Shown one piece after another: positions 2,419 through 20,478 of a DNA stretch of 20,478 bases (within the stretch, counting starts at the first letter, position 1; each line of letters starts with the position of its first letter). The position numbers were made by a program, and so were the translations under genes. The stretch spans positions 1 to 20,478 of IMG/VR virus record IMGVR_UViG_3300014819_000087. The stretch is one strand, 5' to 3'. The DNA comes from a virus. The notes under the pieces are model-generated. The model searched no databases, had not been told where the DNA came from, and saw only the letters and a program-made list of their open reading frames with translations.

Positions 2419-3501
2419 ATGAATATTATATACGCAAATAGCATTGATCCAATTTATCCTAAGGATTATGCGCGAGATTATTTGAATCAATTTCTTCCCA
2501 ATCAAACTTGTTTTCTTTTTACTGACAACAACATTAATAGATTTTCTGACATTGACACGGTGCTTAGTGCCGCAGGTAAGTTAGATTTTATACTAATTGA
2601 CATTACTCACAATGTAGTGGGACTAAAACACAATCAGTTTAGTACCACTTGTAACGGCAATCTCATTCATACCATAGAACAATTGGTTGAATATTGTGAA
2701 TTGTATGCTCCAACTGTTGTGCTACATTGCGATTTTAATTATCAATCCAATACTAGCCACTATTTTTATTTTCCACTTTGGTTATGGATGTGGTCAGCAA
2801 AAAAACCATTGTGGTATGCAAATGAAGGGAAACAACTCAATTTGTATGATGTGTTAGAAAATAAAACTCAAGGACTGTTTTGTTTAAACAGAACACCAAC
2901 CTGGCACAGGATTTTGTTGTTTAATACTATTGTAGAAAAATCATGGTTCTCAAAAATATCATATACGTTTGGTAATCATGGACACGGCAAACAATTTGAA
3001 CATGCGTTTCACAGTTTAACTCAATTAGAGATAACTGAATTTGAACGCAAAAAACATTATTTGCCTTTTGTGTTAATTGATGAAGATAAAGAAGATACTA
3101 CAGATGTAGGAGTATCACACCCAGTCTGGAGCACTCACACATTTAATCTAGTGACTGAGTCTTCAATATCCTATACATTACTCAGTGAAAAAACAGCTAA
3201 ACCTTTTGTAACAAAAATGATACCTATTATTTTAGGACCTCAAAATGCTGCACAACATTTAACAGAACTAGGTTTAGATATGTTTGAGGATATTGTACCT
3301 TGGTATACTTGGGACCACTTAGAAAGTCCAAGAGATCGGATTAGTATTATAGTAAATTTTTTAGAAGATTTTCTCAAACAAGATCTTGTGGCAATCTATC
3401 ATGCCAACAAACATAGAGTCGATTGTAACAAAGAATTTTTTCATAGCGAAAAATTTAGAAAAAATCTTCTTAAAGATATGGTCAAACTTTCATCCAACTG
3501 A
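2419..3501 (+). CDS. Putative glycosyltransferase, GT10-like C-terminal motif
   Basis: This is a 360-aa protein with no signal peptide or clear membrane segment. Its C-terminal part (about 242-320) has a layout seen in GT10 fucosyltransferase-like proteins of aquatic phages: FNLVTES (242-248), SEKTAKPF (256-263), then IPIILGPQN, followed by a helix with LGLDMFEDIVPW. In that family the Glu and the SEK lysine lie in the nucleotide-sugar pocket. The first 240 residues begin with a beta-strand (NIIYANSID) and are otherwise not recognised. The natural-looking N-terminus supports the ATG at 2419, but no Shine-Dalgarno precedes it. The coding sequence is visibly richer in A+T than the flanking head genes, which hints at separate acquisition as a moron-type cargo gene. 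The 3' end overlaps the opposite-strand gene by 20 bases. The sugar and acceptor are unknown; the family assignment rests on motif memory only. Confidence 0.6.
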   Translation: MNIIYANSIDPIYPKDYARDYLNQFLPNQTCFLFTDNNINRFSDIDTVLSAAGKLDFILIDITHNVVGLKHNQFSTTCNGNLIHTIEQLVEYCELYAPTVVLHCDFNYQSNTSHYFYFPLWLWMWSAKKPLWYANEGKQLNLYDVLENKTQGLFCLNRTPTWHRILLFNTIVEKSWFSKISYTFGNHGHGKQFEHAFHSLTQLEITEFERKKHYLPFVLIDEDKEDTTDVGVSHPVWSTHTFNLVTESSISYTLLSEKTAKPFVTKMIPIILGPQNAAQHLTELGLDMFEDIVPWYTWDHLESPRDRISIIVNFLEDFLKQDLVAIYHANKHRVDCNKEFFHSEKFRKNLLKDMVKLSSN

Positions 3502-4630
3502 GATATTGACTAACTTTTTTCTTGACACTGGCCCAGTCGCCCATTGCGGGCTGACGGAACAGGCGTGCAGTTGAGTACCATGGTGAATCATCACGATTTA
3601 ACAACCAGCGCCAGTCTGTACCAAACCAGTTGAGCATAATCCAGGTAGGACGACCTAGTGCTCCGCTAAGATGTGATACAGCAGTGTCCACACCAATTAC
3701 AACGTCCATGGCCATGATTAAGGCCGCAGTGTCTACAAAACTTGTAATACTGCCAGGATATGCCTTGACTCCTGCTTCCACTAGTGCTGCTTCTTCTTCG
3801 GGTGTGGCATCAATTTGCAAATTAACCCATTCATATTGAGAATTTGTTCGGATCAGTTCCAGCATGTCTTCAAACGGCATGCCCTTGTGACGATTCAACC
3901 AAGCATCACGACGGCCACTCCAACAAAATCCCACCCTCATGCGAGTCTTGGGACCTAGTATTTGCAACCATTCTTGCTGTTTGTTCATATCTACGTTGAG
4001 ATAGTTCACAGGCTTTGGCAAGTTTTCTAGTGTGACACCCAAGATGCCAGGAATGCTCATGATAGGAATCCAGTAGTCAAACTTGCCAACATCATCTAAA
4101 TAGCCGCCAACTCGTTCAATGATGGGGCTGTTGCTTAATAAAGGAATCAATCCGTCTGTTACTTTGAGTTTGATCTTTGCACCTGCCACATGCAAGTTCC
4201 ACAAGAAGCGCACAAACTGAATATTGTCTCCATGACCTTGTTCGCCTTCCACAAGGATAGTTTTGTCTTTTAAGTCTTGACCAGTCCAACGTGGCTGTGT
4301 GTGTTTGGGCAGTTGACCGGCAAGATGCTCATAGTTCCAACGCACTTCATACAAAGGCCATCCTTGAGCATAGTTGCCCTGGATCAAATAGCTTACTGCT
4401 AGATTAAAAAGGGCTGTGACATTCTGTGGTTCTAACACAATGGCATGCTGTAAGAATGGCACAGCTCGTGCAGGTTGCCCACATTCTCTCATGACATTGC
4501 CATAGTTGTTCCAGGCAGCAGCCAAGTCCATGTCTTCTACAAATGCTTGAGCATAGCATTTGAGAGCTTCAGTTGGTTGATTTTGTGCTCGGTATTCGTT
4601 GCCTTGAGCAATTAAAAGTTGTGTATCCAT
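3482..4630 (-). CDS. TPR-domain glycosyltransferase, GT9-like
   Basis: Read from the ATG at 4630 the protein has 382 residues. About three tetratricopeptide units span residues 5-105 (for example AWNNYGNVMRECGQPARAV and ALFNLAVSYLIQGNYAQGW). A GT-B/heptosyltransferase-like domain follows, with GEQGHGDNIQFVRF (about 131-144), VGFCWSGR (about 243-250), VIGVDTAVSHLSGALGRPTW (about 320-339) and DWRWLLNRDDSPWY (about 346-359). This TPR plus GT9 layout is common in Proteobacteria and occurs in aquatic phages; GT9 enzymes usually move sugars onto lipopolysaccharide. An in-frame TTG at 4654 would add eight residues, but it sits at or before the expected transcription start of the promoter at 4658-4686, so the ATG is preferred. 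It is the only gene on this strand. Likely roles are remodelling of the host surface or glycosylation of virion proteins; the acceptor is unknown. Confidence 0.85.
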   Translation of the reverse strand: MDTQLLIAQGNEYRAQNQPTEALKCYAQAFVEDMDLAAAWNNYGNVMRECGQPARAVPFLQHAIVLEPQNVTALFNLAVSYLIQGNYAQGWPLYEVRWNYEHLAGQLPKHTQPRWTGQDLKDKTILVEGEQGHGDNIQFVRFLWNLHVAGAKIKLKVTDGLIPLLSNSPIIERVGGYLDDVGKFDYWIPIMSIPGILGVTLENLPKPVNYLNVDMNKQQEWLQILGPKTRMRVGFCWSGRRDAWLNRHKGMPFEDMLELIRTNSQYEWVNLQIDATPEEEAALVEAGVKAYPGSITSFVDTAALIMAMDVVIGVDTAVSHLSGALGRPTWIMLNWFGTDWRWLLNRDDSPWYSTARLFRQPAMGDWASVKKKVSQYLSWMKV

Positions 4631-4657
4631 GGCTATATTTAAGGTGCAGTTCAAGCC

Positions 4658-7481: not shown

Positions 7482-10400
7482 ATGCCAACATTAAATTTTC
7501 CAACCAATCCAACACTGAATCAAACATACAGTTTTGGCGGAAAAACTTGGGTGTGGAACGGCCAAGGTTGGCAGCTGTCTGCCTCTGGCGCAATCAATAA
7601 TATTCCTATTGGTAACATCACACCTGCTTCAGGTGCGTTTACCACTCTGGCAGCTAACACTTTTGCTGCCAACGGCATCACAGTACTGGGCAATATTACT
7701 GGCGCAAATTTAAATGCCACTGGCAATCTCAGTGTTGCTGGCAATGTCAATTCGCCACTAAACGTTACAGCCAATGTTACTGCCACAAACTTTGTCACAG
7801 CAGGCACGCTGACTGCTGGCATAGTTAGCTCTACAGGCAATGTGACCGGTGCTTACATTATTGGTGATGGTAGCCAGCTTACAAATCTTCCAGGTGTTAA
7901 CTATTCAAACGCCAATGTGGCCAATTACTTGCCCACATACACAGGCAACCTTGCGAGCTTAACAGGTCCTGTAACAACTACAGGCAACTTAACTGGCGCA
8001 AATGTTGTTACTAGCGGATTGGTCACAACCACAGGCAATATCACAGGCGGTAACTTACGCACAGCAGGCAGCATAACTGCCACAGGCAATATCACAAGTG
8101 GTAATCTTGCCACCGGCAATATTATTTCAGCTAGTATCAACAGTTCAGGATTAATTTCGGCTGTAGGTAACATCACCGGTTCATACATTTTTGGTAATGG
8201 TAGTCAACTAACTGGGTTACCAGCTACCTATTCAAATGCCAATGTGGCAGCTTACCTGCCAACTTACACGGGCAACTTGCCCAACTTAACAGGCCCAGTT
8301 ACTACCACAGGTAACCTAACTGGTGGCAATGTTTTAACAACTGGAGTGATCAGTGCTGCTGGTATTGTTACAGGTGGTAATGTTAGCACAGGCAATATTA
8401 CAGCTGGTAATGTCAGTACCACTGGCAATGTTCGAGCAGCATACTTCTTAGGCGATGGCAGCCAGCTTACCAATTTGCCAGCAGGTAATTATTCAAACGC
8501 AAACGTAGCCGACTACTTGCCAACTTATACAGGCAACCTGGTCAGTTTAACTGGACCAGTTACAACCACAAGTAACTTGACTGGTAGCAATGTATTAACT
8601 AGTGGATTGATATCAGCAACTGGTAATATCACAGGTGGCAACGTTGCTACTGGTAATATTGTTGCTGGCAATTTAAGAACCGCTGGAACAATCAGTGCTA
8701 CCGGCAATATTGTTGGTGCTTACATTTTAGGTGATGGTAGCCAATTAACAAACTTACCTGCTGGCAACTATTCAAACGCAAACGTAGCCGACTACTTGCC
8801 AACTTATACAGGCAACCTGGTCAGTTTAACTGGACCAGTCATAACCACAAGTAACATCACAGGTGGAAACTTACAAACTGGTGGAAGTTTAACTGTATCT
8901 GGCAATATTGCCGGTGGTAATGTTTCTACTGGTAATATTGTTGCTGGCAATGTCAGCACAGTTGGCAATGTTCGAGCAGCATACTTTTTGGGAGATGGTA
9001 GCCAATTAACAAACTTACCTGCTGGTAATTATTCAAACGCAAACGTAGCCAACTACCTGCCTACGTATACTGGTAATCTTGCAAGTTTAACAGGTCCAGT
9101 TACAACCACAGGTAACTTGACTGGCAGCAATGTATTAACTAGTGGATTGATATCGGTAACTGGTAATATCACAGGTGGCAATATTGCTACTGGAAATATA
9201 CTTGCTGGTAATATTAGCACTGCTGGTAATGTTCGTGGTACTTATATTTTAGGTGATGGTAGCCAATTAACAAACTTACCTGCTGGCAATTATTCAAATG
9301 CCAATGTAGCCAACTACTTGCCCACATACACAGGTAACTTGGTCAGTTTGACAGGGCCAGTTACTACTACTTCAAACATAACAGGTGGTAATTTAGTCAC
9401 TGCTGGATCAATCACAGCCACTGGCAACATTGCAGGCGGCAATATTGCTACAGGTAATTTGATTGCTGCCAATGTAGCTTCGTTAGGTGCAGTTAGTGCA
9501 GTAGGCAATGTTGCTGGCACGTACTTCATTGGTAATGGTGCTTTCTTAACTGGTATTGCCAGTGGCAACTCAAACTATTCAAATGCCAATGTGGCTGCCT
9601 ATTTGCCAACTTATACTGGCAATTTGGTTAGCCTTGCTGGACCAATTGTTACTACAGGCAACATTACTGGCAATTACATATCAGCTACGGGCAATATATT
9701 TGCCGGAAACATTACAGCCAACAGTCGATTAAGTGTTGGCCAGGCTAACATTTATCCCAACAATTTTGATCCAGCAGTATTGACCATTCAAGCTGATGCA
9801 GTTGGATTCTCTGGACTGATAATTGCCACAGGTGATATATCTGGTAACAATTTGTCAGCTGGTGGCAATGTAATTGGTGGCAATATACGCACTGCTGGCA
9901 TAGTTAGTGCTGTTGGTAACATTTATGCTGCTAACTTTGTTGGTAACGTTACTGGCAACATTAATGTACCAGGCGCCAATACACAAATTTTATTTAACGA
10001 TGGCGGCCTAGCCGGCGCCAGCGCTGGCCTTACATTTAACAAAACCACACAAGTTCTTTCAGTCACTGGCAATATTCAAAGTGGCAACTTACGCACTGCT
10101 GGATTAATCAGTGCAACTGGTAACATAGCTGGTCAATACTTTGTTGGTAACGGTAGTCTACTCACTGGCATTATTGCTTCGGCTGGCGCTGCCATTACAA
10201 ACGGCAGCAGTAATGTCACAGTTGCAGCCAATGGCAATGTCACAGTTACAGTGACCGGAAATTACAATGTTGCAACAGTAGCCACAACTGGTGTTTATGT
10301 AGCAGGTTTAGTATCAGCCACAGGCAATATTGCTGGCAATTACTTGTTGGGTAATGGTAGTCAACTAACCGGATTACCAGCCACTTATTCAAATGCCAAT

Positions 10401-13400
10401 GTTGCGGCATACTTGCCTACATACTCTGGTAACTTGCCAAGTTTAACTGGATTAGTTTCTACCACAGGCAATATCAGTGGCAGTTACTTGTTAGGCAATG
10501 GTGCTTTAATTACTGGACTACCGGCTGGCTATAGTAATGCTGATGTAGCTGCATACTTGCCAACATATTCAGGTAATTTAGTCAGCCTAACCGGATTGGT
10601 TTCTACCACCGGCAACATCAGTGGCAATTATGTTTTAGGTAACGGTGCGTTGCTAACTGGTGTGATCACATCAGTGGCCAATATCAACAACGGCACATCA
10701 AACATCACAGTTGTGAGTTCAGGTGGTAACATCACTGTAGGTGTTGGCGGTACAGGCAATGTAGCTGTGTTTGCCACAACTGGCGAATACGTCACAGGTG
10801 TAGTAAGTGCAAGCGGTAATATTACTGGTAGCAATTTGGTCACCAGCGGGTTAGTAACAGCAACTGGCAATGTTGTTGCAGGCAATTTGCAAACTGCTGG
10901 ATTAATAACATCCACAGGCAATATAACTGGTGGCAATGTCTTAACAAGTGGAGTAATATCTGCAACCGGTAATGCAGCGGTAGGCAATCTAAACACTACA
11001 GGACTAGTTACTGCAACTGGTAATATCACCGGCGGTAATGTACTAACTGCTGGTCAAGTATCCGCAACTGGCAATGTTGCTGGTAATTACTTCATTGGTA
11101 ATGGTAGCCAACTAACTGGTGTTGCGGCATCTAGTGTAAACGCCGCAGCATTGATTGGTAATACATTAAGTTCGAACGTTTTATATTCAAGTTTGACCAC
11201 GGTTGGCAATTTGACCAACTTGAGTGTTGTGGGCAACACAACCAGTGGTAATTTATTAACTGGTGGATTGATCAGTGCAACTGGCAACATAAATGTAGGC
11301 AACATAAACACCGCTGGCCTTGCATCAGTTACTGGCAACATTACAGGTGGTAACTTATTAACTAGCGGATTAGTTTCGGCAACTGCTAATGTAGCAGGCG
11401 GAAATATTACCACAGCAGGATTGATCACAGCAACTGGCAATGTCACTGGTGGCAATGTAATTACCACTGGATTAATTACAGCCAGCGGCAACATTTCTGG
11501 CAACAATATTTTTGCTACCACGCTGATCAGTGTAACTGGTAATGTGATTGCTGCCAATGTTAATACAAGTGCAATTAGACCAGTCAGTGGCGAATTAACA
11601 ATCACCACAGCCACAGGTAATTTAAATCTGCAACCTGCAGGCAACATTGTTCTAGCTAACACTATTATCAATAGTTTAGCATATCCACTACAAGATACTG
11701 ACGCCGCAACCAAGTTGTATGTTGACAACATGGCGTCAACTGGCATTGGGTATCACACCGCAGTGGCTGCGGCCACCACAACTACATTGGCTAGTACTAC
11801 CAGCGGTACAATAACATACACACAGCCAAACGGTGCAGCTAATGGTATTGGTGCCAAACTGACCACAACTGGATCATTCAATTTAATTGACACTGTCAAT
11901 GTGCAGTCATCTGGCACACGTATCTTGGTCAAGAACGAAGGTAATGCAGTATACAATGGTGTGTATACCTGGGCCAATACCACAGCCATTGTGCGTTCAA
12001 CTGACACCGACGAATATGGTGCAGACAGCGCCAATGCAATAAGTGTCAATGATTATTTCTTTGTGTCAACTGGCAATGTCAATGGTGGTAGTGCTTACAT
12101 TGTTAATGCACCTGCTGGCACAATCACGTTTGGCACCAGCAATATTACTTTTGCTCAGTTCAGTCAAGCCACTCTTTATACTGCCAACACTGATGCTGGC
12201 CTGAGTTTGATTGGCTCACAGTTTAATGCCAAGGTAGACCAAAATACCACAGCATTCGATGTTGCTGGTAATATCATTGTCAAAGCAGGTGCAAACTTAA
12301 CCACACCTAACATCGGCGCCGCAACTGGTACCAGTTTGAGTTTGATTGGCAATGCAATCAGTGGCAATGTGCTAACTGGTGGATTGATATCATCAACTGG
12401 CAACATCACTGGCGGCAATGTAACCACAGCCGGTACTATCACAGCCGCTGGCAATGTACAGGCAGGCAATCTTGTCACAGCAGGATCAATCACAGCCACT
12501 GGTAACATTAGTGCTGCTTATTTTTCTGGCAATGGTGCTGGTCTTTCAAATGTTGTTGCAGCCGGCGGCGTAGGTAACACAATTACACTGGGCACACCAA
12601 CTGATGGTAATTTGGTTGCAAATGGTGCCTATCAAGGCTGGACCACTGCTACATTTGTAACAGATGGCCTTGATGACCTAAACCAAGTGGCATTTAACAT
12701 TGCCAATAGCACTTATGTTGGCAACACATACATTACAGCCAATGTGTATTCGGGACCAAGTCCGTTGTCAGTGGCCTTTACTGGACGATATATTGGCAAC
12801 CCCAACAGTTACTTGTGGCAATTTGGTGACGGCACAGCCAACGTTACCACAGCCAATGCTGTTCACACATTCTCTAATGCGTTAGGTGGCACATTTACTG
12901 TGTCATTTACTGCCTACAATACCAACGGCACATTTAACGGCAATGCAGCCAACGGTGCCAAAGGATCAACCAGTACTGCAAGTATCTCAAACATTGTGTT
13001 GTACACACCCAGTCCAATACCATCGTTTACGCTCAGCAGCAACAGCTTTAACTCTGGCAACAGTGTTACCGTAACCAACACCAGTCAGTACGTGACTTGG
13101 TATGATTTGAGTTTTGGTGACGGCACAGCTAACTTTACTGCTGGTCCAGGACTGGCCAACACTTCATTCACCACAGTCAATCACACCTACAATTCTGCCG
13201 CTGCCAACACTGACAGTTTGTACAGTGTGATACTAAGTGGTACTAGCAACACCGCAGGTGCCAGTAACGTCACAGTGGTATCATCGGCCAGCAATGTCAA
13301 GTCTTATTCATCACAAGCCAGCAACGTGGTTGTCACTGCTAATGTGATCACAGTGATCAACGGATTAGGAGGCGTGAGTTTTAGAAATGATTCAAACGGT

Positions 13401-15641
13401 GCTCCGGGCAACACAGCAAGTTTTGGCAGTCAGCAGTTGTACAACTACAACTATGGTGATGGCAATGTTGCCAACGTGAACATTGGAACAAGTATTGCTG
13501 GCAATCCATCTGCTGCTAACGTGACAAATACGTTTGCACTGTCAGGTGCTAACCAAGCTGGCAATGCTTACCAACAGTTCACGGCAAACTTGTATTTGTA
13601 CACTGGCTACAGCACAAGTCCAGCCAAATCCAGCAACATTACTATCACAGTGAATCCACAAGTTCGTGCTAACTTTATTGGTACTGCGGCAAACACTACC
13701 ACTGACGCCACTGCCAACACAGGTAATGCTCAAGTAGGATACATTTACACAGACTACACCGGCAACAACCGTGCTACATTTACTTTCCAGAACACTAGCC
13801 AGAACAGCAATTTAGCCAACTGGTCCTGGGGCGACAGCACATTTAGCAATAGTGTAAGCAATGTGGGCAATACCCTACACACTTACACTTTGACTGGTGC
13901 CAAAACTGTAGCTCTAACTGCTAACGGCACACCAAATGGTATTTCAAGCACTGCTCAAAGCAATACCTCAAGCATCACAGGTTACATCTTTATTGCAACC
14001 AATCCAACTGCACCAACCAATTTAAGTGGCTTTGCTAATTTGGCTATTGCCAACACCAGCGAAGGTACCAGCCCATTACTGGCAGCAGGTGCAAGAGATG
14101 CCACAGGCGGCAACATTGTTGCCAACGGCGCAAGCGTAACACGTTTTGCTACCACAACCACAATTGCCACAGCAGCCAACATTGTAAATGCCAACACAGC
14201 CACAACTGGTACACTGAGTGCGTATGTTAATAATGGCATCTCTGGCAACGTGACATTTACCACCACAGGCAACACTGTGGGATCCAATGCTGCACTGGTC
14301 ATAAGTGCTGACAGAGACTTGCACGTGGCCAACGCCGCAGTGCCCAGCTACTTCTACAAAGTTTTTAACGCCAACATCAGCTGTGCTCTCAGCAGTCTTG
14401 AAACAGGTTACAATAACTACAAACTGGTACACACAGTATCTGGTAATACTAACTATGTGGGATTTGTCAAAGACAATTTAAACACAGCACCAAGTTTGGT
14501 TACCAGCAACATAGCCATAGTAGAAGGTACAGCAGGAACCTACAGATACATTTCTGGCATTCCTTATTACAACACTGGCTCACCTACAGTGACCATTGCC
14601 AATTTAGCGGTAGCAAACTTGTCTGGGCAGACCTTTAGAAGTGCTGACCCGTTTGTGTTGGCCAGTGGAACAGTATCTGAAGGAACTGGCGCTTTGGTAT
14701 CTGCAACACAAACCAAATCACTCAGTACCATTAACAATTCTGGCAACAGTTTCTTGACAAGTGCAAATTTAAATGCCAACGTGGGTATTGCTTCAAACTA
14801 CACACTTGGCAATATAACAGCCAACTTGACAGGTGCCAACAATGTTGTGGCCACTCTACAAGCCAACATATTCAACGTGATAGGAACTAGCAGCACAGTA
14901 CAATTGCCTGCTAACATACAGATGTATGCCGGTGCAAATTCAGGTGTGAATGAACAGTCAATCACTGCATCAACAACAGGAAACACACAAGCAGCCATAC
15001 GTGTAGTAATGAGCACTTCAGGCAACACTCCTGCGTTCTCTAACTCTACTAACTTCTACACAGCCAATGCTTGGTCTGGTGCACAAACCATTGCTGGCAC
15101 GCCAGAAGCAGTAGTACGTTATGGAATACTCAAACAGTATGCAGTTGATCTCAGCACTGGGTACTTGCCAGTAGGACCAAACTTGTCAGTCACTGGTGGT
15201 CGCACAAGCACACAGTATTTTACTTTTGCATTTGCAAGACCCAGCCTAGCCAACTTTGACATTAGAATAACTTCAGTCACAGGCGTTGCAGGTGTTTGGA
15301 TTGCAGCACCAGGAACAACTATTGACAAAAGTGGATTTACATCGCCAACTCCAGGATTTCCAGGACCCACCAGTACCATCAACGGCTGGTTGGAAGCATC
15401 CACACAGTATGCCGGATCCGGAGTTCCGGGTGCAAGTGGCACAGGTGGCAACGGCTCAAATGGATGTGCCCTGACTGGTGCAGACGTTATACCATTAAAT
15501 ACAGCAATCTCTAACGTAGCATACACAATGACCCTTGGATCTCAAAACGCTGCCAATAGTACTGGCACTAATATTTTAATTAGAATTGCATTGGCAAGTG
15601 GTCAAACCATATCAGACCTGCAGATAGGAACGGCAACATAA
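7482..15641 (+). CDS. Giant repeat tail fibre protein with PKD-like domains
   Basis: This is a 2719-aa protein. Modules in order: residues 3-33 FPTNPTLNQTYSFGGKTW...W, a common fibre N-terminal module; about 45-1040, a repetitive shaft with nine YSNANVAxYLPTYTGNL units and many GDGSQLTNLP or GNGSQLTGL turns; about 826-870 NTQILFNDGG...GLTFNK, a widespread phage module; 1108-1365, exact 17-residue repeats; about 1405-1563 DTDAATKLYVDN...RILVKNEGNAVYNGVYTW...FAQF, a well-known tail-fibre domain; about 1698-1745 LGTPTDGNL...DGLDDLN; about 1757-2150, four PKD-like domains; about 2480-2719, a C-terminal domain with FAFARPSLANFDIRITS and NGSNGCALTGAD. Lys, Arg, Glu and Cys are very rare in the shaft. 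It is about twice the length of T4 gp34. No typical S74 chaperone ending is recognised. The stop codon shares one base with the next ATG, so translation is coupled. No good Shine-Dalgarno precedes the start. Confidence 0.88.
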   Translation: MPTLNFPTNPTLNQTYSFGGKTWVWNGQGWQLSASGAINNIPIGNITPASGAFTTLAANTFAANGITVLGNITGANLNATGNLSVAGNVNSPLNVTANVTATNFVTAGTLTAGIVSSTGNVTGAYIIGDGSQLTNLPGVNYSNANVANYLPTYTGNLASLTGPVTTTGNLTGANVVTSGLVTTTGNITGGNLRTAGSITATGNITSGNLATGNIISASINSSGLISAVGNITGSYIFGNGSQLTGLPATYSNANVAAYLPTYTGNLPNLTGPVTTTGNLTGGNVLTTGVISAAGIVTGGNVSTGNITAGNVSTTGNVRAAYFLGDGSQLTNLPAGNYSNANVADYLPTYTGNLVSLTGPVTTTSNLTGSNVLTSGLISATGNITGGNVATGNIVAGNLRTAGTISATGNIVGAYILGDGSQLTNLPAGNYSNANVADYLPTYTGNLVSLTGPVITTSNITGGNLQTGGSLTVSGNIAGGNVSTGNIVAGNVSTVGNVRAAYFLGDGSQLTNLPAGNYSNANVANYLPTYTGNLASLTGPVTTTGNLTGSNVLTSGLISVTGNITGGNIATGNILAGNISTAGNVRGTYILGDGSQLTNLPAGNYSNANVANYLPTYTGNLVSLTGPVTTTSNITGGNLVTAGSITATGNIAGGNIATGNLIAANVASLGAVSAVGNVAGTYFIGNGAFLTGIASGNSNYSNANVAAYLPTYTGNLVSLAGPIVTTGNITGNYISATGNIFAGNITANSRLSVGQANIYPNNFDPAVLTIQADAVGFSGLIIATGDISGNNLSAGGNVIGGNIRTAGIVSAVGNIYAANFVGNVTGNINVPGANTQILFNDGGLAGASAGLTFNKTTQVLSVTGNIQSGNLRTAGLISATGNIAGQYFVGNGSLLTGIIASAGAAITNGSSNVTVAANGNVTVTVTGNYNVATVATTGVYVAGLVSATGNIAGNYLLGNGSQLTGLPATYSNANVAAYLPTYSGNLPSLTGLVSTTGNISGSYLLGNGALITGLPAGYSNADVAAYLPTYSGNLVSLTGLVSTTGNISGNYVLGNGALLTGVITSVANINNGTSNITVVSSGGNITVGVGGTGNVAVFATTGEYVTGVVSASGNITGSNLVTSGLVTATGNVVAGNLQTAGLITSTGNITGGNVLTSGVISATGNAAVGNLNTTGLVTATGNITGGNVLTAGQVSATGNVAGNYFIGNGSQLTGVAASSVNAAALIGNTLSSNVLYSSLTTVGNLTNLSVVGNTTSGNLLTGGLISATGNINVGNINTAGLASVTGNITGGNLLTSGLVSATANVAGGNITTAGLITATGNVTGGNVITTGLITASGNISGNNIFATTLISVTGNVIAANVNTSAIRPVSGELTITTATGNLNLQPAGNIVLANTIINSLAYPLQDTDAATKLYVDNMASTGIGYHTAVAAATTTTLASTTSGTITYTQPNGAANGIGAKLTTTGSFNLIDTVNVQSSGTRILVKNEGNAVYNGVYTWANTTAIVRSTDTDEYGADSANAISVNDYFFVSTGNVNGGSAYIVNAPAGTITFGTSNITFAQFSQATLYTANTDAGLSLIGSQFNAKVDQNTTAFDVAGNIIVKAGANLTTPNIGAATGTSLSLIGNAISGNVLTGGLISSTGNITGGNVTTAGTITAAGNVQAGNLVTAGSITATGNISAAYFSGNGAGLSNVVAAGGVGNTITLGTPTDGNLVANGAYQGWTTATFVTDGLDDLNQVAFNIANSTYVGNTYITANVYSGPSPLSVAFTGRYIGNPNSYLWQFGDGTANVTTANAVHTFSNALGGTFTVSFTAYNTNGTFNGNAANGAKGSTSTASISNIVLYTPSPIPSFTLSSNSFNSGNSVTVTNTSQYVTWYDLSFGDGTANFTAGPGLANTSFTTVNHTYNSAAANTDSLYSVILSGTSNTAGASNVTVVSSASNVKSYSSQASNVVVTANVITVINGLGGVSFRNDSNGAPGNTASFGSQQLYNYNYGDGNVANVNIGTSIAGNPSAANVTNTFALSGANQAGNAYQQFTANLYLYTGYSTSPAKSSNITITVNPQVRANFIGTAANTTTDATANTGNAQVGYIYTDYTGNNRATFTFQNTSQNSNLANWSWGDSTFSNSVSNVGNTLHTYTLTGAKTVALTANGTPNGISSTAQSNTSSITGYIFIATNPTAPTNLSGFANLAIANTSEGTSPLLAAGARDATGGNIVANGASVTRFATTTTIATAANIVNANTATTGTLSAYVNNGISGNVTFTTTGNTVGSNAALVISADRDLHVANAAVPSYFYKVFNANISCALSSLETGYNNYKLVHTVSGNTNYVGFVKDNLNTAPSLVTSNIAIVEGTAGTYRYISGIPYYNTGSPTVTIANLAVANLSGQTFRSADPFVLASGTVSEGTGALVSATQTKSLSTINNSGNSFLTSANLNANVGIASNYTLGNITANLTGANNVVATLQANIFNVIGTSSTVQLPANIQMYAGANSGVNEQSITASTTGNTQAAIRVVMSTSGNTPAFSNSTNFYTANAWSGAQTIAGTPEAVVRYGILKQYAVDLSTGYLPVGPNLSVTGGRTSTQYFTFAFARPSLANFDIRITSVTGVAGVWIAAPGTTIDKSGFTSPTPGFPGPTSTINGWLEASTQYAGSGVPGASGTGGNGSNGCALTGADVIPLNTAISNVAYTMTLGSQNAANSTGTNILIRIALASGQTISDLQIGTAT
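7902..10613 (+). repeat. Nine-copy YSNANVAxYLPTYTGNL module array
   Basis: The Tyr codons opening each copy are at 7902, 8229, 8490, 8769, 9030, 9291, 9576, 10386 and 10530. Most spacings are 261 nt (87 residues), with variants of 279, 285 and 327 nt. All are multiples of three, so the array never breaks the frame. DNA identity is high: the stretch after 8490 and the stretch after 8769 match almost perfectly for about 70 bases, and the block near 8561 recurs near 9101 with few changes. Confidence 0.92.
10803..11576 (+). repeat. 51-nt (17-residue) repeat array in the giant fibre gene
   Basis: Consensus per unit is (I/V)SATGNITGGNxxTxGL. Five exact 17-residue units run 10803-11057 and six more run 11271-11576. 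Between them is a non-repeat insert containing the NTLSSNVLYSSLTTVGNLT module. The constant length suggests one turn or layer of a repeated beta fold per unit. Confidence 0.9.
12750..13940 (+). other. Region encoding four PKD-like beta-sandwich domains
   Basis: Residues about 1757-2150 of the giant protein. Domain 1 is a clear PKD match: SPLSVAFTG, then YLWQFGDGTANVT, then AVHTFSN, then GTFTVSFTAYN. Domain 2 has LSFGDGTANFT...VNHTYN...YSVILSG. Domain 3 has YNYGDGNVANV...VTNTFALSG and is more divergent. Domain 4 has ANWSWGDSTFSNSVSNV...LHTYTLTGAKTVALTANG. PKD domains are Ig-like folds that act as spacers or bind glycans and proteins. Here they interrupt the repeat shaft. Confidence 0.75.
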
Positions 15642-17125
15642 TGGCTGCGTCCTTTAACGAATCACAAAAGATTGACTATCTTTGGAAAAAGGTCGGTTAT
15701 GGTGTAACCAAAACTGCTGAACCTGCTTCCAAAGAAGCCTTTAACGAAAGCATTGCCAGTCCGCTGTTGTATCGTGGCGACCTTATCTGGACACAGAGTG
15801 GAGACATACCGGCCACACCACCTGCTAGTACCACGTCGTTGGTTCAGGTATACAAAGATGGTGTTGGTAGCTTCAGTCCCGCAGTGCAATGTACTGAAGA
15901 TCTAACTGCACCTGACAACCAAACCTGGAAAACAAACTCTACCAATTGGATTCCTACACAGTTTGGCGACAACTATCTAGTGCAGGTGTACGCTGGCGCC
16001 GCAAACATAAGCAATCCTCAAACAGCAGGTACCAAACTGTTTGGCGCTGGGTCGGGCAGTGATGACACTTGGTTCTTTGACTACCAATCTGGCGTTTTAA
16101 ACTTCAATGGCGCAACTATCCCAACTGCTATTGGTACTGGGACAGCCAACACAATTTACGTTGTTGGCTACAGATATGTTGGTGAGTTTGGTGTAGACAC
16201 CACATTTATCAGCAATGGTACCAGTAACGTAAACATTGCCAGTTCAAATGCCAATGTAACAATCAGTGTGAATGGTACCAGCAATGTTGCTGTGTTTTCC
16301 AACACAGGCGCATACATTACTGGAGCAGTATCCGCAACAGGCAATATCACTGGCGGCAACATACTCAGCAACAATTACTATTATGCTAACGGAACTCCAG
16401 TTCCTCCAGGCATAATTTACACTGCTAACACAGCACCTCCCACAACTCCTGCGCCTAAAGTTACAGATCAATGGTACGACACTGCCAGCGATGTGCTTTA
16501 TGAATACATCAATGACGGAACCAGTACATACTGGGTAGATACCACAAGTCCTGCATTTGCCGGTGGCGTTGTGGCCAATGTGGCAATTTCAGGTACGCTG
16601 GTACCAGTTGCTAATGTCACATACGATATTGGCACCAGTACTGTATATTTTCGCAATACCTACACCCAGAATCTCTACACCAACAATAGATTGACTGCAT
16701 CCAACATGCCGTCTGGTGCTGTGGTACAGACTGTGATGAGTACAAGCCTGGGAGGCAGTGCTACCACAGGCACCAGCTACAGCGATATTGCATTGGCTAA
16801 CGTGGTAATTCAGCCGTCTAGTGCCAATAGCAAGGTGTTGATTATAGCCACTGGAACCAGTAGTTTTACTCCGCTAGCCGCTGCAAATTTAACTGCCAGT
16901 ACGCAATTGGTACGAGGCGTTGCTTCTTTGCAGATACAAGAATACAGCGCCAATATTTCTGGTGGAGGAGTGGGTGGATCATCCGCAGTAGCGTTCAGTT
17001 ACTTGGATAGTCCAAACACCACAAGCCCAGTAACTTACAAAATGCAACAGAAAATATCTAATTCTTCCAGCACACTGACCAGTTCTAACATGTGGATAAT
17101 TGCCATGGAGATTGCTGTACCATGA
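15641..17125 (+). CDS. Tail fibre protein with common C-terminal beta domain
   Basis: The 494-aa protein starts MAASFNESQKIDYLWKKVGYG, an N-terminal module known from structural proteins of marine T4-like phages. Next come a beta region with FGAGSGSDDTWFFDYQSGVLNFNG (about 135-160), an NGTSNV module (192-232) leading into one SATGNITGGN repeat, a VTDQWYDTASDVLYEYINDG module (about 272-295), a YDIGTSTVYFRNTY module, and from residue 356 a MPSGAVVQTVMST...TSYSDIALANVVIQPSSANSKVLI domain running to the end (MEIAVP). That last domain is a very common C-terminus of phage tail fibres and probably the receptor-facing or trimer-closing tip. The ATG overlaps the stop codon of the giant gene (TAATG), and AGGAA at 15626-15630 serves as a moderate ribosome-binding site. 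Confidence 0.82.
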   Translation: MAASFNESQKIDYLWKKVGYGVTKTAEPASKEAFNESIASPLLYRGDLIWTQSGDIPATPPASTTSLVQVYKDGVGSFSPAVQCTEDLTAPDNQTWKTNSTNWIPTQFGDNYLVQVYAGAANISNPQTAGTKLFGAGSGSDDTWFFDYQSGVLNFNGATIPTAIGTGTANTIYVVGYRYVGEFGVDTTFISNGTSNVNIASSNANVTISVNGTSNVAVFSNTGAYITGAVSATGNITGGNILSNNYYYANGTPVPPGIIYTANTAPPTTPAPKVTDQWYDTASDVLYEYINDGTSTYWVDTTSPAFAGGVVANVAISGTLVPVANVTYDIGTSTVYFRNTYTQNLYTNNRLTASNMPSGAVVQTVMSTSLGGSATTGTSYSDIALANVVIQPSSANSKVLIIATGTSSFTPLAAANLTASTQLVRGVASLQIQEYSANISGGGVGGSSAVAFSYLDSPNTTSPVTYKMQQKISNSSSTLTSSNMWIIAMEIAVP

Positions 17126-17796
17126 TCAGTAAAATTCAAGCCATACAAAGTTTAGTGCCCGGCGCAGAAGTATCTGTAGCAGTGCATGATGATTCGGTGA
17201 CCTGGATCAACCCAGAAAAACCTCCTATAACTGACGAGCAAATTGCTGCCGAACAACAACGCCTGCAGATGATACATGATTGGCACGAGTACCGTAGAAA
17301 TCGTGCTACAGAGTACCCTACCATTCAAGAACAACTGGATGCACTATATCATGCTGGTATTTTTCCGCCAGAAATGTCTGCAAGAATCCGTGCTGTGAAA
17401 GAAAAATATCCAGCACCCTCAATGACTCCGGAGCAGTTGGCCGAGTTTAACAAACAACAGCAACCCGCGGAAGAACCAGAAAAATTAACAGTGGAACAGT
17501 GGTTTGAAGAGCAAGCACAACAAGGAACTGTGTTGGATTTTGAAAGAGAACAACAGCATTGGGTAGCACAGCAACAGGTGTCAAACACACCAATGACCCG
17601 TGAAGAATGGCTGGAAAGTCAATTAAAAGTAGCGTTGCCCGGCACCGGAACAGTGATACCCGCACCGCAAACAATGACTCGTGAAGAGTGGCTAGAAAGC
17701 CAGTTAAGAATGGTATTTGCAACACCAAAATCAGCAATAACGGTGCCGCAAACAATGACTCGTGAGGAGTGGTTAGCATGGCAAAAATCATTATGA
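17122..17796 (+). CDS. XkdW-like small fibre-cluster protein with MTREEW repeats
   Basis: Read from the ATG at 17122 the protein has 224 residues. This start overlaps the preceding stop codon as ATGA, with GGAG at 17107-17110; an upstream ATG at 17092 would add ten residues (with two Cys) that look like the neighbour's shadow. Residues about 52-99 (DWHEYRRNRATEYPTIQEQLDALYHAG, then AVKEKYPAP) match the small family found beside tail-fibre genes in many phages, resembling XkdW: R...YP.I..QLD.LYH..., with a KAVK.KYP helix. The C-terminal half is Gln/Glu-rich and helical and holds three perfectly spaced MTREEWL units (residues 158, 185 and 212; 27 residues apart) plus a weaker LTVEQWFEEQ copy. 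It is acidic and lacks the beta fibre style of its neighbours. An assembly, chaperone or connector role for the flanking fibres is inferred from position. Confidence 0.72.
   Translation: MISKIQAIQSLVPGAEVSVAVHDDSVTWINPEKPPITDEQIAAEQQRLQMIHDWHEYRRNRATEYPTIQEQLDALYHAGIFPPEMSARIRAVKEKYPAPSMTPEQLAEFNKQQQPAEEPEKLTVEQWFEEQAQQGTVLDFEREQQHWVAQQQVSNTPMTREEWLESQLKVALPGTGTVIPAPQTMTREEWLESQLRMVFATPKSAITVPQTMTREEWLAWQKSL
17593..17796 (+). repeat. 81-nt tandem repeat encoding MTREEWLESQL
   Basis: Copies start at 17593, 17674 and 17755, exactly 81 nt apart. Each has an identical or nearly identical ATGAC(C/T)CGTGA(A/G)GA(A/G)TGG core followed by a more variable spacer. The third copy is cut short by the stop codon. 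Confidence 0.92.
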
Positions 17797-17849: not shown

Positions 17850-20478
17850 ATGGCCTTTCCAACATCACCAACCAATGGGCAAGTAACAGTAGTTAATCAA
17901 GTATCGTATCAGTACAGCACTGCCACTAATAGCTGGACAAGAATTCTTTCTACTGCCAATATCATCACAGCCAATACAATTGCTGTGAATGGTGCGCTAA
18001 CTGTGGGTACTATTGTCAGCGCCGCAGGCAACATCACAAGTGCTAACTTCTTTTTGGGCAACGGTTACTATTTAACCGGTATCAATACTGGCAATTTAAA
18101 TATTACTAATATTGCAAATGGCACTTCAAATGTCAATGCTGGCGTGGCCAATGGCAATATTACAGTGGGCATTGGCGGAACCAGCAACGTAATACAGTGG
18201 GCTTCTACAGGTCAATATGTCACAGGTGTTGTGAGTGCATCAGGCACAGTTACAGGTGGTAACTTGGCCACAGGTGGTACTGCAAGTGCTGGTGGTAACA
18301 TTACCGGTGGCAATTTATTAACTGGTGGATCAATCTCTGCCGCAAGCACAGTAACTGGTGGCAACTTGGCCACAGGTGGTACTGCAAGTGCTGGTGGCAA
18401 TATCACAGGTGGTAATTTATTAACTGGCGGATTGATATCTGCCACATCAACAATTACTTCAGCAGCTACCATAACAGGTGGTAATTTGGCCACAGGTGGT
18501 ACAGCAAGTGCTACAGGCAATATTACAGGTGGTAACATACTCACAGGTGGCCTGGTCAGTGCCACTGCCAACATAACCGGTGGCAATTTGGTCACAGCCG
18601 GTGTAACATCAACTGGTAATTTCAGCATAACTGGCAACGTAACTGGCAATTTGTTGCCTAGTGCCAATGCAACATACAGTTTAGGTGGACCAGGACAACT
18701 TTGGAAGAACTTATATCTAAGTGGTAACACTCTCGTACTTGGCGATCAGTCAATCAGCTCGAATGCCACAGCAATTTTCACAGCAAACAATTTTGCTGCT
18801 AACAATTTAAATGCTACAAATACCATAACTTCTGGAAACACAGTATCTGCAACAGGCAACGTTACAGGTGGTAATGTATTAACTGGTGGATTGGTCAGTG
18901 CAACTGCCACAATCACTGGTGGCAACTTGGCCACAGGTGGTACTGCAAGTGCAGGTGGCAACATTACTGGTGCAAATGTCCTAACTGGTGGATTGATAAG
19001 CGCAACTGCCACAATCACAGGTGGCAATTTGGCCACAGGTGGCACAGCCAGCGCCGCAGGTAATGTCACAGGTGGCAACGTACTTACTGGTGGATTGATA
19101 AGCGCAACTGCTACTATCACGGGTGGCAATTTGGCTACAGGTGGTACTGTAAGTGCTGGTGGCAATGTAGCTGGTGGCAATGTTCTAACCGGTGGATTGA
19201 TATCAGCAACAGGTAACATTACTGGTGGCAATGTAGGTACCACCAATTTAAGTTTGTCAGGCAATGTATTGAGTACATTGAATCTAAATGGCGCTATAAT
19301 TTCTAGCGCCAGCATAAGCACCGGCAGCACTGTGTCTGCCGCAGCCAATGTAACAGGCGGCAACTTATTAACAGCTGGAGTAGTATCGGCAACTGCTACA
19401 ATTACAGGTGGCAATTTAGCCACAGGTGGTACTGCAAGTGCAGGTGGCAATATTACTGGTGCAAACATCTTAACAGGTGGCTTGATTAGTGCAGCTGGCA
19501 ATGTTAGCGGCAACTATATTTTAGGTAATGGTAGCCAACTTACTGGCATTGATGCTACTTCCATACAAAATGGCACAAGTAATGTGCGTGTGGTCAGCTC
19601 AGGTGGCAATGTATCCATTGGAATTGGTGGAACTAGTAATGTAGCAGTGTTTGCAACTACTGGACAATACATTACAGGCGTGTCAAATGTTAGTGGTACC
19701 ATTGCTGGCGGCAATATCTTAACTGTTGGATTGATAAGCTCAACCGGCAACGTTACTGGTGGTAACATCTTAACTGGTGGATTGATATCTGCAACTGGCA
19801 ACGTAACTGGTTATAGCATTATTGGTAATAACTTAAATGTCACAGGTAATGCAACTGCTAACAATGTATTAACAGGTATTTTAAGTGCTACTTCGGCTAT
19901 TATTTCGGCCAATGTCCAAGGTGGAAACATTACCACAGCCGGACAAGTTAGTGCCGTAGGTAACATTACAGCCAACACAGGTTCGTTCTTCGTTGGTAAC
20001 GGATCACAACTAACAGGTGTCACAGCCAGCGGTGTTGATGCAAATAATTTAACTGGTAACACACTAAATTCAGGTGTAATTTTCTCAAGTTTGACCACAG
20101 TTGGCACACTTACCAGTTTATCAGTAAGTGGCAACACTACCACTGGTAATTTAAACACTGGCGGATTGGTTAGTGCAAGTGGTACTATTATATCAGGTGC
20201 CAACATTCAAGGCGCTAATTTAGTAACTGGCGGATTGGTTAGTGCTGGTGGTAACATCATTTCGGCGGCCAATATTACCGGTGGTAACTTGGCCACAGGT
20301 GGTACTGCAAGTGCTACAGGAACCATAACAGGTGGCAACTTGGCCACAGGCGGCACCGCAAGTGCCGCAGGTAATATCACAGGTGGTAATGTACTGACTG
20401 GCGGTTTGATATCTGCCACATCAACAATTACATCTGCTGCCACAATCACAGGTGGCAATTTGGCCACAGGTGGCACAG
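17850..20478 (+). CDS. Second giant repeat tail fibre protein (3' end outside window)
   Basis: An open frame runs from the ATG to the window edge: 876 complete codons and no stop. It opens with MAFPTSPTNGQVTVVNQVSYQY..ATNSWTRI, the same N-terminal fibre module as the other giant protein. It continues with an NGTSNV module (about residues 89-130), the first 17-residue repeat block, a LLPSANATYSLGGPGQLWKNLYLSGNTLVLG module (about 269-300), a long second repeat block, a second NGTSNV module (about 572-615), a GNGSQLTGV turn, an NTLNSGVIFSSLTTVGTLTSLSV module (about 735-757) and a third repeat block. The frame contains no Cys and very few charged residues. Likely a long trimeric beta-structured fibre shaft; its tip and any chaperone domain lie downstream and cannot be judged. 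Confidence 0.85.
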   Translation, partial: MAFPTSPTNGQVTVVNQVSYQYSTATNSWTRILSTANIITANTIAVNGALTVGTIVSAAGNITSANFFLGNGYYLTGINTGNLNITNIANGTSNVNAGVANGNITVGIGGTSNVIQWASTGQYVTGVVSASGTVTGGNLATGGTASAGGNITGGNLLTGGSISAASTVTGGNLATGGTASAGGNITGGNLLTGGLISATSTITSAATITGGNLATGGTASATGNITGGNILTGGLVSATANITGGNLVTAGVTSTGNFSITGNVTGNLLPSANATYSLGGPGQLWKNLYLSGNTLVLGDQSISSNATAIFTANNFAANNLNATNTITSGNTVSATGNVTGGNVLTGGLVSATATITGGNLATGGTASAGGNITGANVLTGGLISATATITGGNLATGGTASAAGNVTGGNVLTGGLISATATITGGNLATGGTVSAGGNVAGGNVLTGGLISATGNITGGNVGTTNLSLSGNVLSTLNLNGAIISSASISTGSTVSAAANVTGGNLLTAGVVSATATITGGNLATGGTASAGGNITGANILTGGLISAAGNVSGNYILGNGSQLTGIDATSIQNGTSNVRVVSSGGNVSIGIGGTSNVAVFATTGQYITGVSNVSGTIAGGNILTVGLISSTGNVTGGNILTGGLISATGNVTGYSIIGNNLNVTGNATANNVLTGILSATSAIISANVQGGNITTAGQVSAVGNITANTGSFFVGNGSQLTGVTASGVDANNLTGNTLNSGVIFSSLTTVGTLTSLSVSGNTTTGNLNTGGLVSASGTIISGANIQGANLVTGGLVSAGGNIISAANITGGNLATGGTASATGTITGGNLATGGTASAAGNITGGNVLTGGLISATSTITSAATITGGNLATGGT
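18231..20478 (+). repeat. 51/102-nt repeat arrays in the second giant fibre gene
   Basis: The unit is 17 residues, alternating two types: SAGGNITGGNLLTGGLI and SATxTITGGNLATGGTA. The dominant higher-order period is 102 nt. The TGGNLATGG copy starts at 18252, 18354, 18474, 18915, 19017, 19119, 19404, 20277, 20328 and 20448. A variant with a six-residue insertion (STITSAATITGGN) gives a 120-nt step and occurs twice, before 18474 and before 20448, in nearly the same DNA context. The arrays are broken by the non-repeat modules listed for the gene and run past the window edge. Confidence 0.92.

Follow-up and report, generated by a model that had tools for sequence, protein, structure and literature searches.

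A tail-fibre-like gene of an uncultivated T4-like phage, probably evolving by in-frame turnover of 17-residue units and cassettes

The window, a 20,478-bp virus record which is itself a fragment of a genome, ends in a tail-fibre-like open reading frame (ORF) in which short arrays of 51-nt repeat units stand between non-repeat cassettes. The best explanation, to which a probability of about 0.6 is assigned, is a modular solenoid fibre shaft that evolves by the in-frame gain, loss and exchange of units and cassettes, at a slow to moderate, evolutionary tempo and not in the manner of a switch. Each 51-nt unit would form one 17-residue turn of a predicted β-solenoid, and the changes would be caused by crossover, conversion or slippage between units. 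Since the DNA unit and the structural rung are equal in length, the recombinant would remain in frame and probably in solenoid register; units and intervening cassettes could therefore be duplicated, lost or moved between ends that stay conserved in orthologues, namely the N-terminal domain and the last ~200 residues. In relatives this process would have led to the fibres of widely differing length and cassette order that are seen, and by analogy with other phages it may plausibly affect host range or reach.

The fibre ORF and its genomic setting

The source of the window is an uncultivated T4-like phage, probably of the jumbo type. Its gp23 major capsid gene is T4-type (Pfam PF07068, E 2.2e-96; phrog_138) and has PA5oct and MIJ3 as its closest isolates (66% amino acid identity); the best 20 isolates listed have genomes of 284-469 kb, the window itself being a 20-kb fragment. 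The fibre-like genes come after the capsid gene (Table 1), and include a sister repetitive ORF whose match to the FapA family scores 39.9 bits against a cut-off of 31. In the product of the tail-protein-like gene, the first ~180 residues are 34-38% identical to proteins of Caulobacter jumbo phages, some of which are annotated as tail protein. The small ORF that precedes the fibre carries TMTREEWLESQ repeats close to its C-terminus, and its product is possibly a fibre assembly helper. As judged from sequence, the last ORF would encode a long tail fibre shaft or a fibre-like protein of the virion.

Table 1. Features of the fibre region in the window
Feature	Position	Strand	Remarks
Neighbour gene	6225..7448		Matches phrog_677, baseplate wedge tail fiber connector
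Sister repetitive fibre-like ORF	7482..15641	+	2719 aa; FapA β-solenoid match PF03961, PKD domain, 261-nt repeats
Tail-protein-like gene	15641..17125	+	phrog_9417
Small ORF before fibre	17122..17796	+	phrog_9114; start ATG overlaps preceding stop (ATGA)
Tail-fibre-like ORF	17850..20478	+	Last ORF; 876 aa visible, open at contig end
Conserved N-terminal domain	17850..18251	+	First 127 residues 91-94% identical in L101, L210, L214 and L216
Array 1	18252..18626	+	Seven 51-nt units, one carrying an 18-nt insert
Cassette WKNL (...LGGPGQLWKNLYLSGNTL...)	18627..18863	+	Non-repeat
Array 2	18864..19220	+	Seven units, A/B alternating (102-nt period); AlphaFold2 β-solenoid
Cassette ISSAS	19221..19352	+	No blastn match in the six relatives searched
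Array 3	19353..19505	+	Three units
Cassette GSQL (...ILGNGSQLTGIDATS...)	19506..19703	+
Array 4	19704..19805	+	Two units
Cassette SSLTT	19917..20243	+	DNA 93% identical to L216
Array 5	20277..20478	+	Four units, last one cut; includes second copy of the 120-nt block

Repeat units, their age and their predicted fold

With a looser 17-aa (51-nt) motif, the ORF contains 23 units in five short arrays, the final unit being cut. Tandem Repeats Finder periods of 51, 102 and 204 nt agree with the nested 51-nt and 102-nt repeats described in an earlier, sequence-only reading of this DNA, the basic period being 51 nt (17 aa). The ten exact TGGNLATGG copies which that reading counted were all located in a single open frame (at 18252, 18354, 18474, 18915, 19017, 19119, 19404, 20277, 20328 and 20448), and all unit lengths are multiples of 3, in keeping with its claim that the frame is preserved. 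Its description of the spacing as mostly 102 nt did not hold, being true of three of the nine intervals (102, 120, 441, 102, 102, 285, 873, 51 and 120 nt). The 102-nt period is produced by the frequent alternation of A-type (TGGNLATGG) and B-type units (for example TGGNVLTGGLISAT), and the 69- and 120-nt spacings are due to a 6-residue insert, TSAATI. The proposed duplication of a 120-nt block some 1970 nt apart exists, on a self-comparison diagonal at offset 1974 (18354-18474 / 20328-20448) that holds the best 120-nt self-match of the ORF, but the two copies are not almost the same DNA, matching at 103 of 121 positions (85%).

Compared with 300 random recodings of the ORF by synonymous codons, the nucleotide identity of A-type units is high (83.0% versus a mean of 73.5%, sd 1.0, maximum 77.3), as are the longest exact repeat (42 nt versus at most 32 nt) and the matching positions in the 121-nt block (103 versus at most 99), and DNA-level duplication or conversion is thus real. 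The final 42 nt of the window repeat 19006-19047 exactly, and the contig end thus truncates the ORF's longest exact repeat. Between A-type units, divergence is 4.6% at first, 5.9% at second and 40.5% at third codon positions, identity is independent of distance along the ORF (rho 0.01), and no perfect tandem unit of 24-600 nt was found in the window ORF. The diverged third positions and the lack of a perfect tandem unit mean that the copies in the window are old and not fresh, and the protein is constrained across them. A recent tandem burst was rejected on these two grounds and on the flat relation of identity to distance.

The same codon-position pattern and flat identity would be expected of an ordinary repetitive shaft, in which old duplications are kept alike mainly by constraint on the protein and length variation is incidental and neutral. 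This account, which stands at about even odds, does not readily accommodate a DNA identity above that of the recoded controls; further evidence on both of its sides comes from the relatives considered below.

A fold for the arrays was predicted by AlphaFold2 from positions 18171-19260 together with 32 rows from relatives. In array 2 the model reaches a pLDDT of 90-95, and an 8-residue and a 3-residue strand recur every 17 residues; array 1 is weaker (ten-residue means of 42-84), and the whole model has a mean pLDDT of 76.5 and a pTM of 0.64. One 17-residue unit is thus predicted to form one β-solenoid turn, of either handedness. Foldseek gave no fold match among PDB structures at E <= 0.001, and a sequence search of solved structures gave none at the same threshold, with a weak bactofilin match (6ria, E 0.68). 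Among the best 50 VIA-align matches most are acyltransferases of the GlmU/LpxA/LpxD type, which are left-handed β-helices, with an rmsd of ~11, and the tapirin C-terminal domain is the only close superposition among the matches listed (Z 13.3, rmsd 2.8, 137 residues). A collagen-type repeat was rejected, as the unit is 17 aa long and its sequence has no Gly-X-Y run.

Family searches identified no Pfam family on 18171-19260 at E 0.1 or on the window ORF, and no PHROG match for that ORF; its orthologues are likewise unnamed, with searches for Pfam, PHROG and PDB names empty at the thresholds used. The C-terminus of one orthologue, L214, matches phrog_19602, tail fiber (E 1.7e-7), and also phrog_673, named head scaffolding protein (E 1.1e-7). 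The second of these tells against a fibre; the assignment to phage tail fibres is drawn from the phrog_19602 match, from the neighbouring phrog_677 gene and from PA5oct gp359, the window ORF itself having no PHROG match. Part of the orthologue C-terminal domain, for which the structural model is of low confidence (pLDDT 44.6), is shared with gp359 of PA5oct (46% identity over 99 residues), annotated as a virion structural protein by ESI-MS/MS; gp359 and its Phosso counterpart share this domain, with no 17-aa array visible by eye. Isolate phages gave no tblastn match to the whole window ORF or its N-terminal domain with the low-complexity filter on, and cellular genomes gave one weak match (24% identity, in a Scalindua MAG, L277), which was not used.

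Length and cassette variation among relatives

A set of 276 loci was gathered, eight of them pieces of the window; outside it, 232 loci were non-redundant. The loci were fetched partly by the repeat motif, by which the fibre ORFs were also defined, and the frequency of the motif is therefore uninformative on phages at large. Near-identical loci (>=98.5% over >=1 kb) formed 28 clusters, from which same-contig pairs were removed by hand; four clusters that lacked fibre sequence were set aside, and each of the other 24 contributed one hand-picked pair. The pair L221/L129, although from two contigs, was left out in error, its cluster being kept through other pairs with unchanged counts, and L161/L126 was preferred to the pairs with L133, in which a difference of 3729 nt may stem from an assembly join.

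Fibre length differs in 5 of the 24 pairs, by eight events of at least 9 nt, against 281 fibre SNPs, and all eight events are multiples of 3. The simplest case is that of L186 and L111, which are 99.8% identical over 9.2 kb and differ by exactly one perfect 51-nt unit; a search for more alleles of this site returned these two loci only. L250 and L251 are one perfect 63-nt unit apart, at a site with two units in L250 and L286 and one unit in L251, L282 and L284, and L109 differs from L196 by a 201-nt duplication. The latter two pairs carry a single fibre SNP each, and these three of the five length-differing pairs are simple tandem duplications. In-frame change of fibre length by gain or loss of units, as the sequence-only reading proposed, is therefore seen in relatives of the repeat family, and not in the window gene. 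Identical copy number across close relatives, which was to tell against that proposal, is not general, yet the other 19 pairs show the same fibre length; 13 of these have fewer than five SNPs, and hence have had little time for change, and six have at least five. A wider comparison gave 135 events labelled as fibre, many of them one event repeated across pairs. The lengths of 23 are not divisible by 3; all 23 span at least 512 unaligned bases on both sides and may include gene borders.

Length events as such are not clearly more frequent in fibre ORFs, with 8 in 127 kb versus 2 in 90 kb outside them in the same pairs (one a multiple of 3; binomial p 0.21). Their kind is distinctive. Across 942 kb of fibre ORFs there are 41 distinct perfect tandem duplications with a unit of at least 24 nt, and the rest of these loci, 1,805 kb in all, has 6, a density ratio of about 13; the unit is 51 nt in 21 of the 41 and 102 nt in three, and the six units outside fibre ORFs are also multiples of 3. 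Fibre ORFs are thus distinguished by whole-unit tandem duplication and not by events per kb. For the ordinary repetitive shaft, the unchanged majority of near pairs and the unremarkable event density are favourable, whereas the 13-fold excess of perfect tandem duplications and the one-unit alleles between near-twins argue for the modular shaft.

The loci gathered include no near-identical relative of the fibre gene in the window, and shuffling of its units and cassettes is suggested by comparison with relatives of 78-91% DNA identity. The nearest, L101 (91%), has a contig that ends within an array. Full-length orthologues measure 2509 aa in L210, 2445 aa in L214 and 3563 aa in L216, with 34, 30 and 71 units, respectively, by one motif (36, 33 and 76 by the looser one), and relatives sharing the N-terminal domain span 0 to 71 units. 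The window record ends before the C-terminus of the fibre; among the orthologues, the C-terminal 204 aa are identical in L210 and L214, and those of L216 are 94.6% identical to L214 over 202 aa. Cassette GSQL comes after WKNL in the window but ahead of it in all three full-length orthologues (L210, L214 and L216), of which L214 carries GSQL on both sides of WKNL, as duplication and loss would give. Across long fibre ORFs all 56 shared DNA blocks are in frame, 13 of 16 pairs show at least two diagonals, and a strict change of block order occurs in two of the 16. L212 and L233 show net differences of 1, 7 and 21 units (51, 357 and 1071 nt).

Most of the differences could alternatively be made by recombination between phages, in which cassettes of a hypervariable host-recognition region are exchanged to give mosaics, and not by slippage within a lineage. 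The changes of cassette order are in line with such exchange, as is cassette SSLTT, for which the window and L216 agree at 93% of DNA positions against 85% in the N-terminal DNA. So is a 521-nt stretch without shared anchors, at unchanged net length, between the otherwise near-identical L263 and L139, and T4-like pelagimyophages are known to have host recognition clusters that are hypervariable, according to the accessible part of their description (PMC7029224). The simplest near-twin differences (51, 63 and 201 nt) are nevertheless local tandem duplications that need no donor, and the scarcity of strict block-order changes also speaks against a dominant role for exchange, which is considered a real possibility of somewhat less than even chance.

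The sequence-only reading suggested that the variation could be rapid and phase-like, and neither term is supported. Fibre length is unchanged in 19 of 24 near-identical pairs, and the window-gene orthologue is the same wherever it overlaps in three contigs: L213 and L214, which both carry the 2445-aa form, show 100% identity across 18 kb, and L218, cut at the start of the orthologue, is identical to L214 over its 12.2 kb. The fibre events in the near pairs are all in frame and so would turn nothing on or off, and a phase switch by loss of frame was rejected on the same eight events. A reservoir of contingent alleles, with frequent changes of unit number in a population serving to adjust host range or reach, would gain from the length alleles that separate L109 from L196 and L250 from L251 at very low divergence, from precedents that, in the accessible parts of the reports, tie fibre duplications to host range or coevolution (PMC6365445, PMC2248197), and from longer arrays that short-read contigs may hide, but the constancy of most near pairs and of the three contigs makes it improbable.

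All loci are metagenome contigs, in which differences of length can come from misassembly and a pair may be one sample reassembled. The longest exact repeat is 110-127 nt in 12 of the 232 loci and at least 128 nt in three, a drop which may look as if assemblers hide longer perfect arrays; the k-mer limit of an assembler would lie near that length. Short-read viromes may thus conceal the longest perfect arrays. That the length variation itself is an artefact of repeats collapsed or extended by short-read assemblers is nonetheless unlikely, in spite of this fall-off and of the repeated 42-mer at the window end, since each allele of the 63-nt site occurs in at least two contigs (which may or may not come from independent samples), the two-unit stretch of L111 is only 106 nt, shorter than common sequencing reads, and contig ends fall on repeated 24-mers in 4 of 110 cases versus 1.7 expected, too weak an excess for the idea that ends prefer repeats.

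Relation to known fibre systems

The principle of fibre change by internal duplication is already known; the rung-sized unit, the arrays of many units and the traffic of cassettes are the variant described here. A literature search, mostly of openly available papers, returned no description of the 17-aa array. A more far-reaching proposal is that a widespread group of uncultivated T4-like phages possesses a fibre kit of standard parts, in which 51 nt equal one rung, any homologous crossover can add, drop or exchange rungs and cassettes while preserving frame and register, and natural populations hold coexisting length alleles. This proposal is tentative, and the odds are against it as it stands. 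If it is true, a DNA repeat unit would be tied to a countable structural step, the rise of a β-solenoid turn being on the order of half a nanometre, and the relatives that share the N-terminal domain would offer a natural series of 0 to 71 units with which to study how fibre length matters to a phage.

In-frame tandem gain or loss within a fibre gene, found here in relatives, is shared with T4 gp37, with the Xanthomonas phages OP1, Xp10 and Xop411, and with the Enterococcus phage EfV12-phi1. EfV12-phi1 tandemly duplicated 1.8-kb segments of a fibre gene while coevolving with its host (PMC6365445), and domain duplications in the OP1 fibre went along with changes of host range, in a report that also discusses Xp10, Xop411 and T4 gp37 (PMC2248197). 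As far as the accessible text of these reports extends, their units are small domains or segments of up to 1.8 kb, tied to host range or coevolution, whereas here the unit is one predicted 17-aa solenoid turn, in up to 71 copies, and the variation is natural variation only. As in the systems that alter host range by duplication, copy-number variants are present in the relatives (5 of 24 pairs), though not in the window gene. Simple-repeat phase variation is unlike the present case, in which the near-pair fibre events never shift the frame (8 of 8).

Short repeats that keep the frame also occur in the collagen-like fibres of Streptococcus thermophilus phages and of the Guarani virophage, where losing them alters an attachment-like protein (PMC7242381, PMC5601072). 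The accessible sections of these papers propose collagen-like repeats as recombination hotspots, and report that an 81-nt loss in such repeats of Guarani ORF8 accompanied a host jump (PMC7242381). The present 17-aa TGGN-type unit differs from them in being other than Gly-X-Y and in its predicted β-solenoid fold.

A structural likeness may lie in FapA and bactofilin, given the PF03961 match of the sister ORF and the predicted β-solenoid of the window arrays. The folds of these proteins have short regular turns. The window arrays, by comparison, match no Pfam family, are very long and cassette-bearing, and lie in a phage structural region. The fibre family itself is already in databases as entries without a function: the best BFVD fold match is an uncharacterised protein of an uncultured Caudovirales phage (A0A6J5QQ29 and others, 45% identity), and the entries of this type that were listed state no length variation or unit structure. 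Pelagimyophages and cyanomyophages have a hypervariable region of fibres and glycosyltransferases, the T4-like host recognition cluster, from the accessible description of which unit arrays are absent (PMC7029224); in likeness to that cluster, the window also has a Glyco_transf_9 match.

Repeats and the limits of assembly

The last 42 nt of the record (20437-20478) are an exact copy of 19006-19047, and since the record ends inside this repeat, the true repeat may be longer; its presence may also be the reason why assembly stopped at this point. Across the 232 non-redundant related loci (including L119, L247 and L254), the distribution of the longest exact direct repeat per locus drops sharply above ~127 nt, with 12 of the 232 at 110-127 nt and three beyond that range, a drop from which it is possible that perfect arrays are censored by short-read assembly.

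The aligned parts of related loci L126 and L133 are 99.98% identical, while their lengths differ by 3729 nt within the fibre sequence, which may reflect the loss of a long segment between repeats or contigs wrongly joined. At L246 (8081-9337), a fibre-like match reads through two stop codons, for which a broken gene, a frame problem or an assembly error may account.

The C-terminal domain in isolate phages

Proteins of the isolate phages PA5oct (L278:5011-6447) and Phosso (L279:6558-8438) have a C-terminal domain in common with the fibre orthologues; no 17-aa array was seen by eye in these two proteins.

Other genes of the window

The sister ORF carries three copies of a 261-nt unit (8703-9473) and is probably a second modular fibre. 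The TPR protein gene lies within the structural region, on the opposite strand, and DNA similarity at this place is retained in several related loci.

Additional genes in the window
Feature	Position	Strand	Context or basis
TPR + Glyco_transf_9 protein	3482-4654	minus	within structural region
Sister ORF, 2719 aa	7482-15641		own repeats, FapA beta-solenoid match, PKD domain
Small gene, phrog_9114	17122-17796		flanked by two fibre genes

The small gene begins at an ATGA, its ATG sharing bases with the stop codon of the preceding gene, and its product was assigned to phrog_9114 using a query without the first Met. Close to the C-terminus, this product carries TMTREEWLESQ repeats, of a different type from the solenoid repeats.
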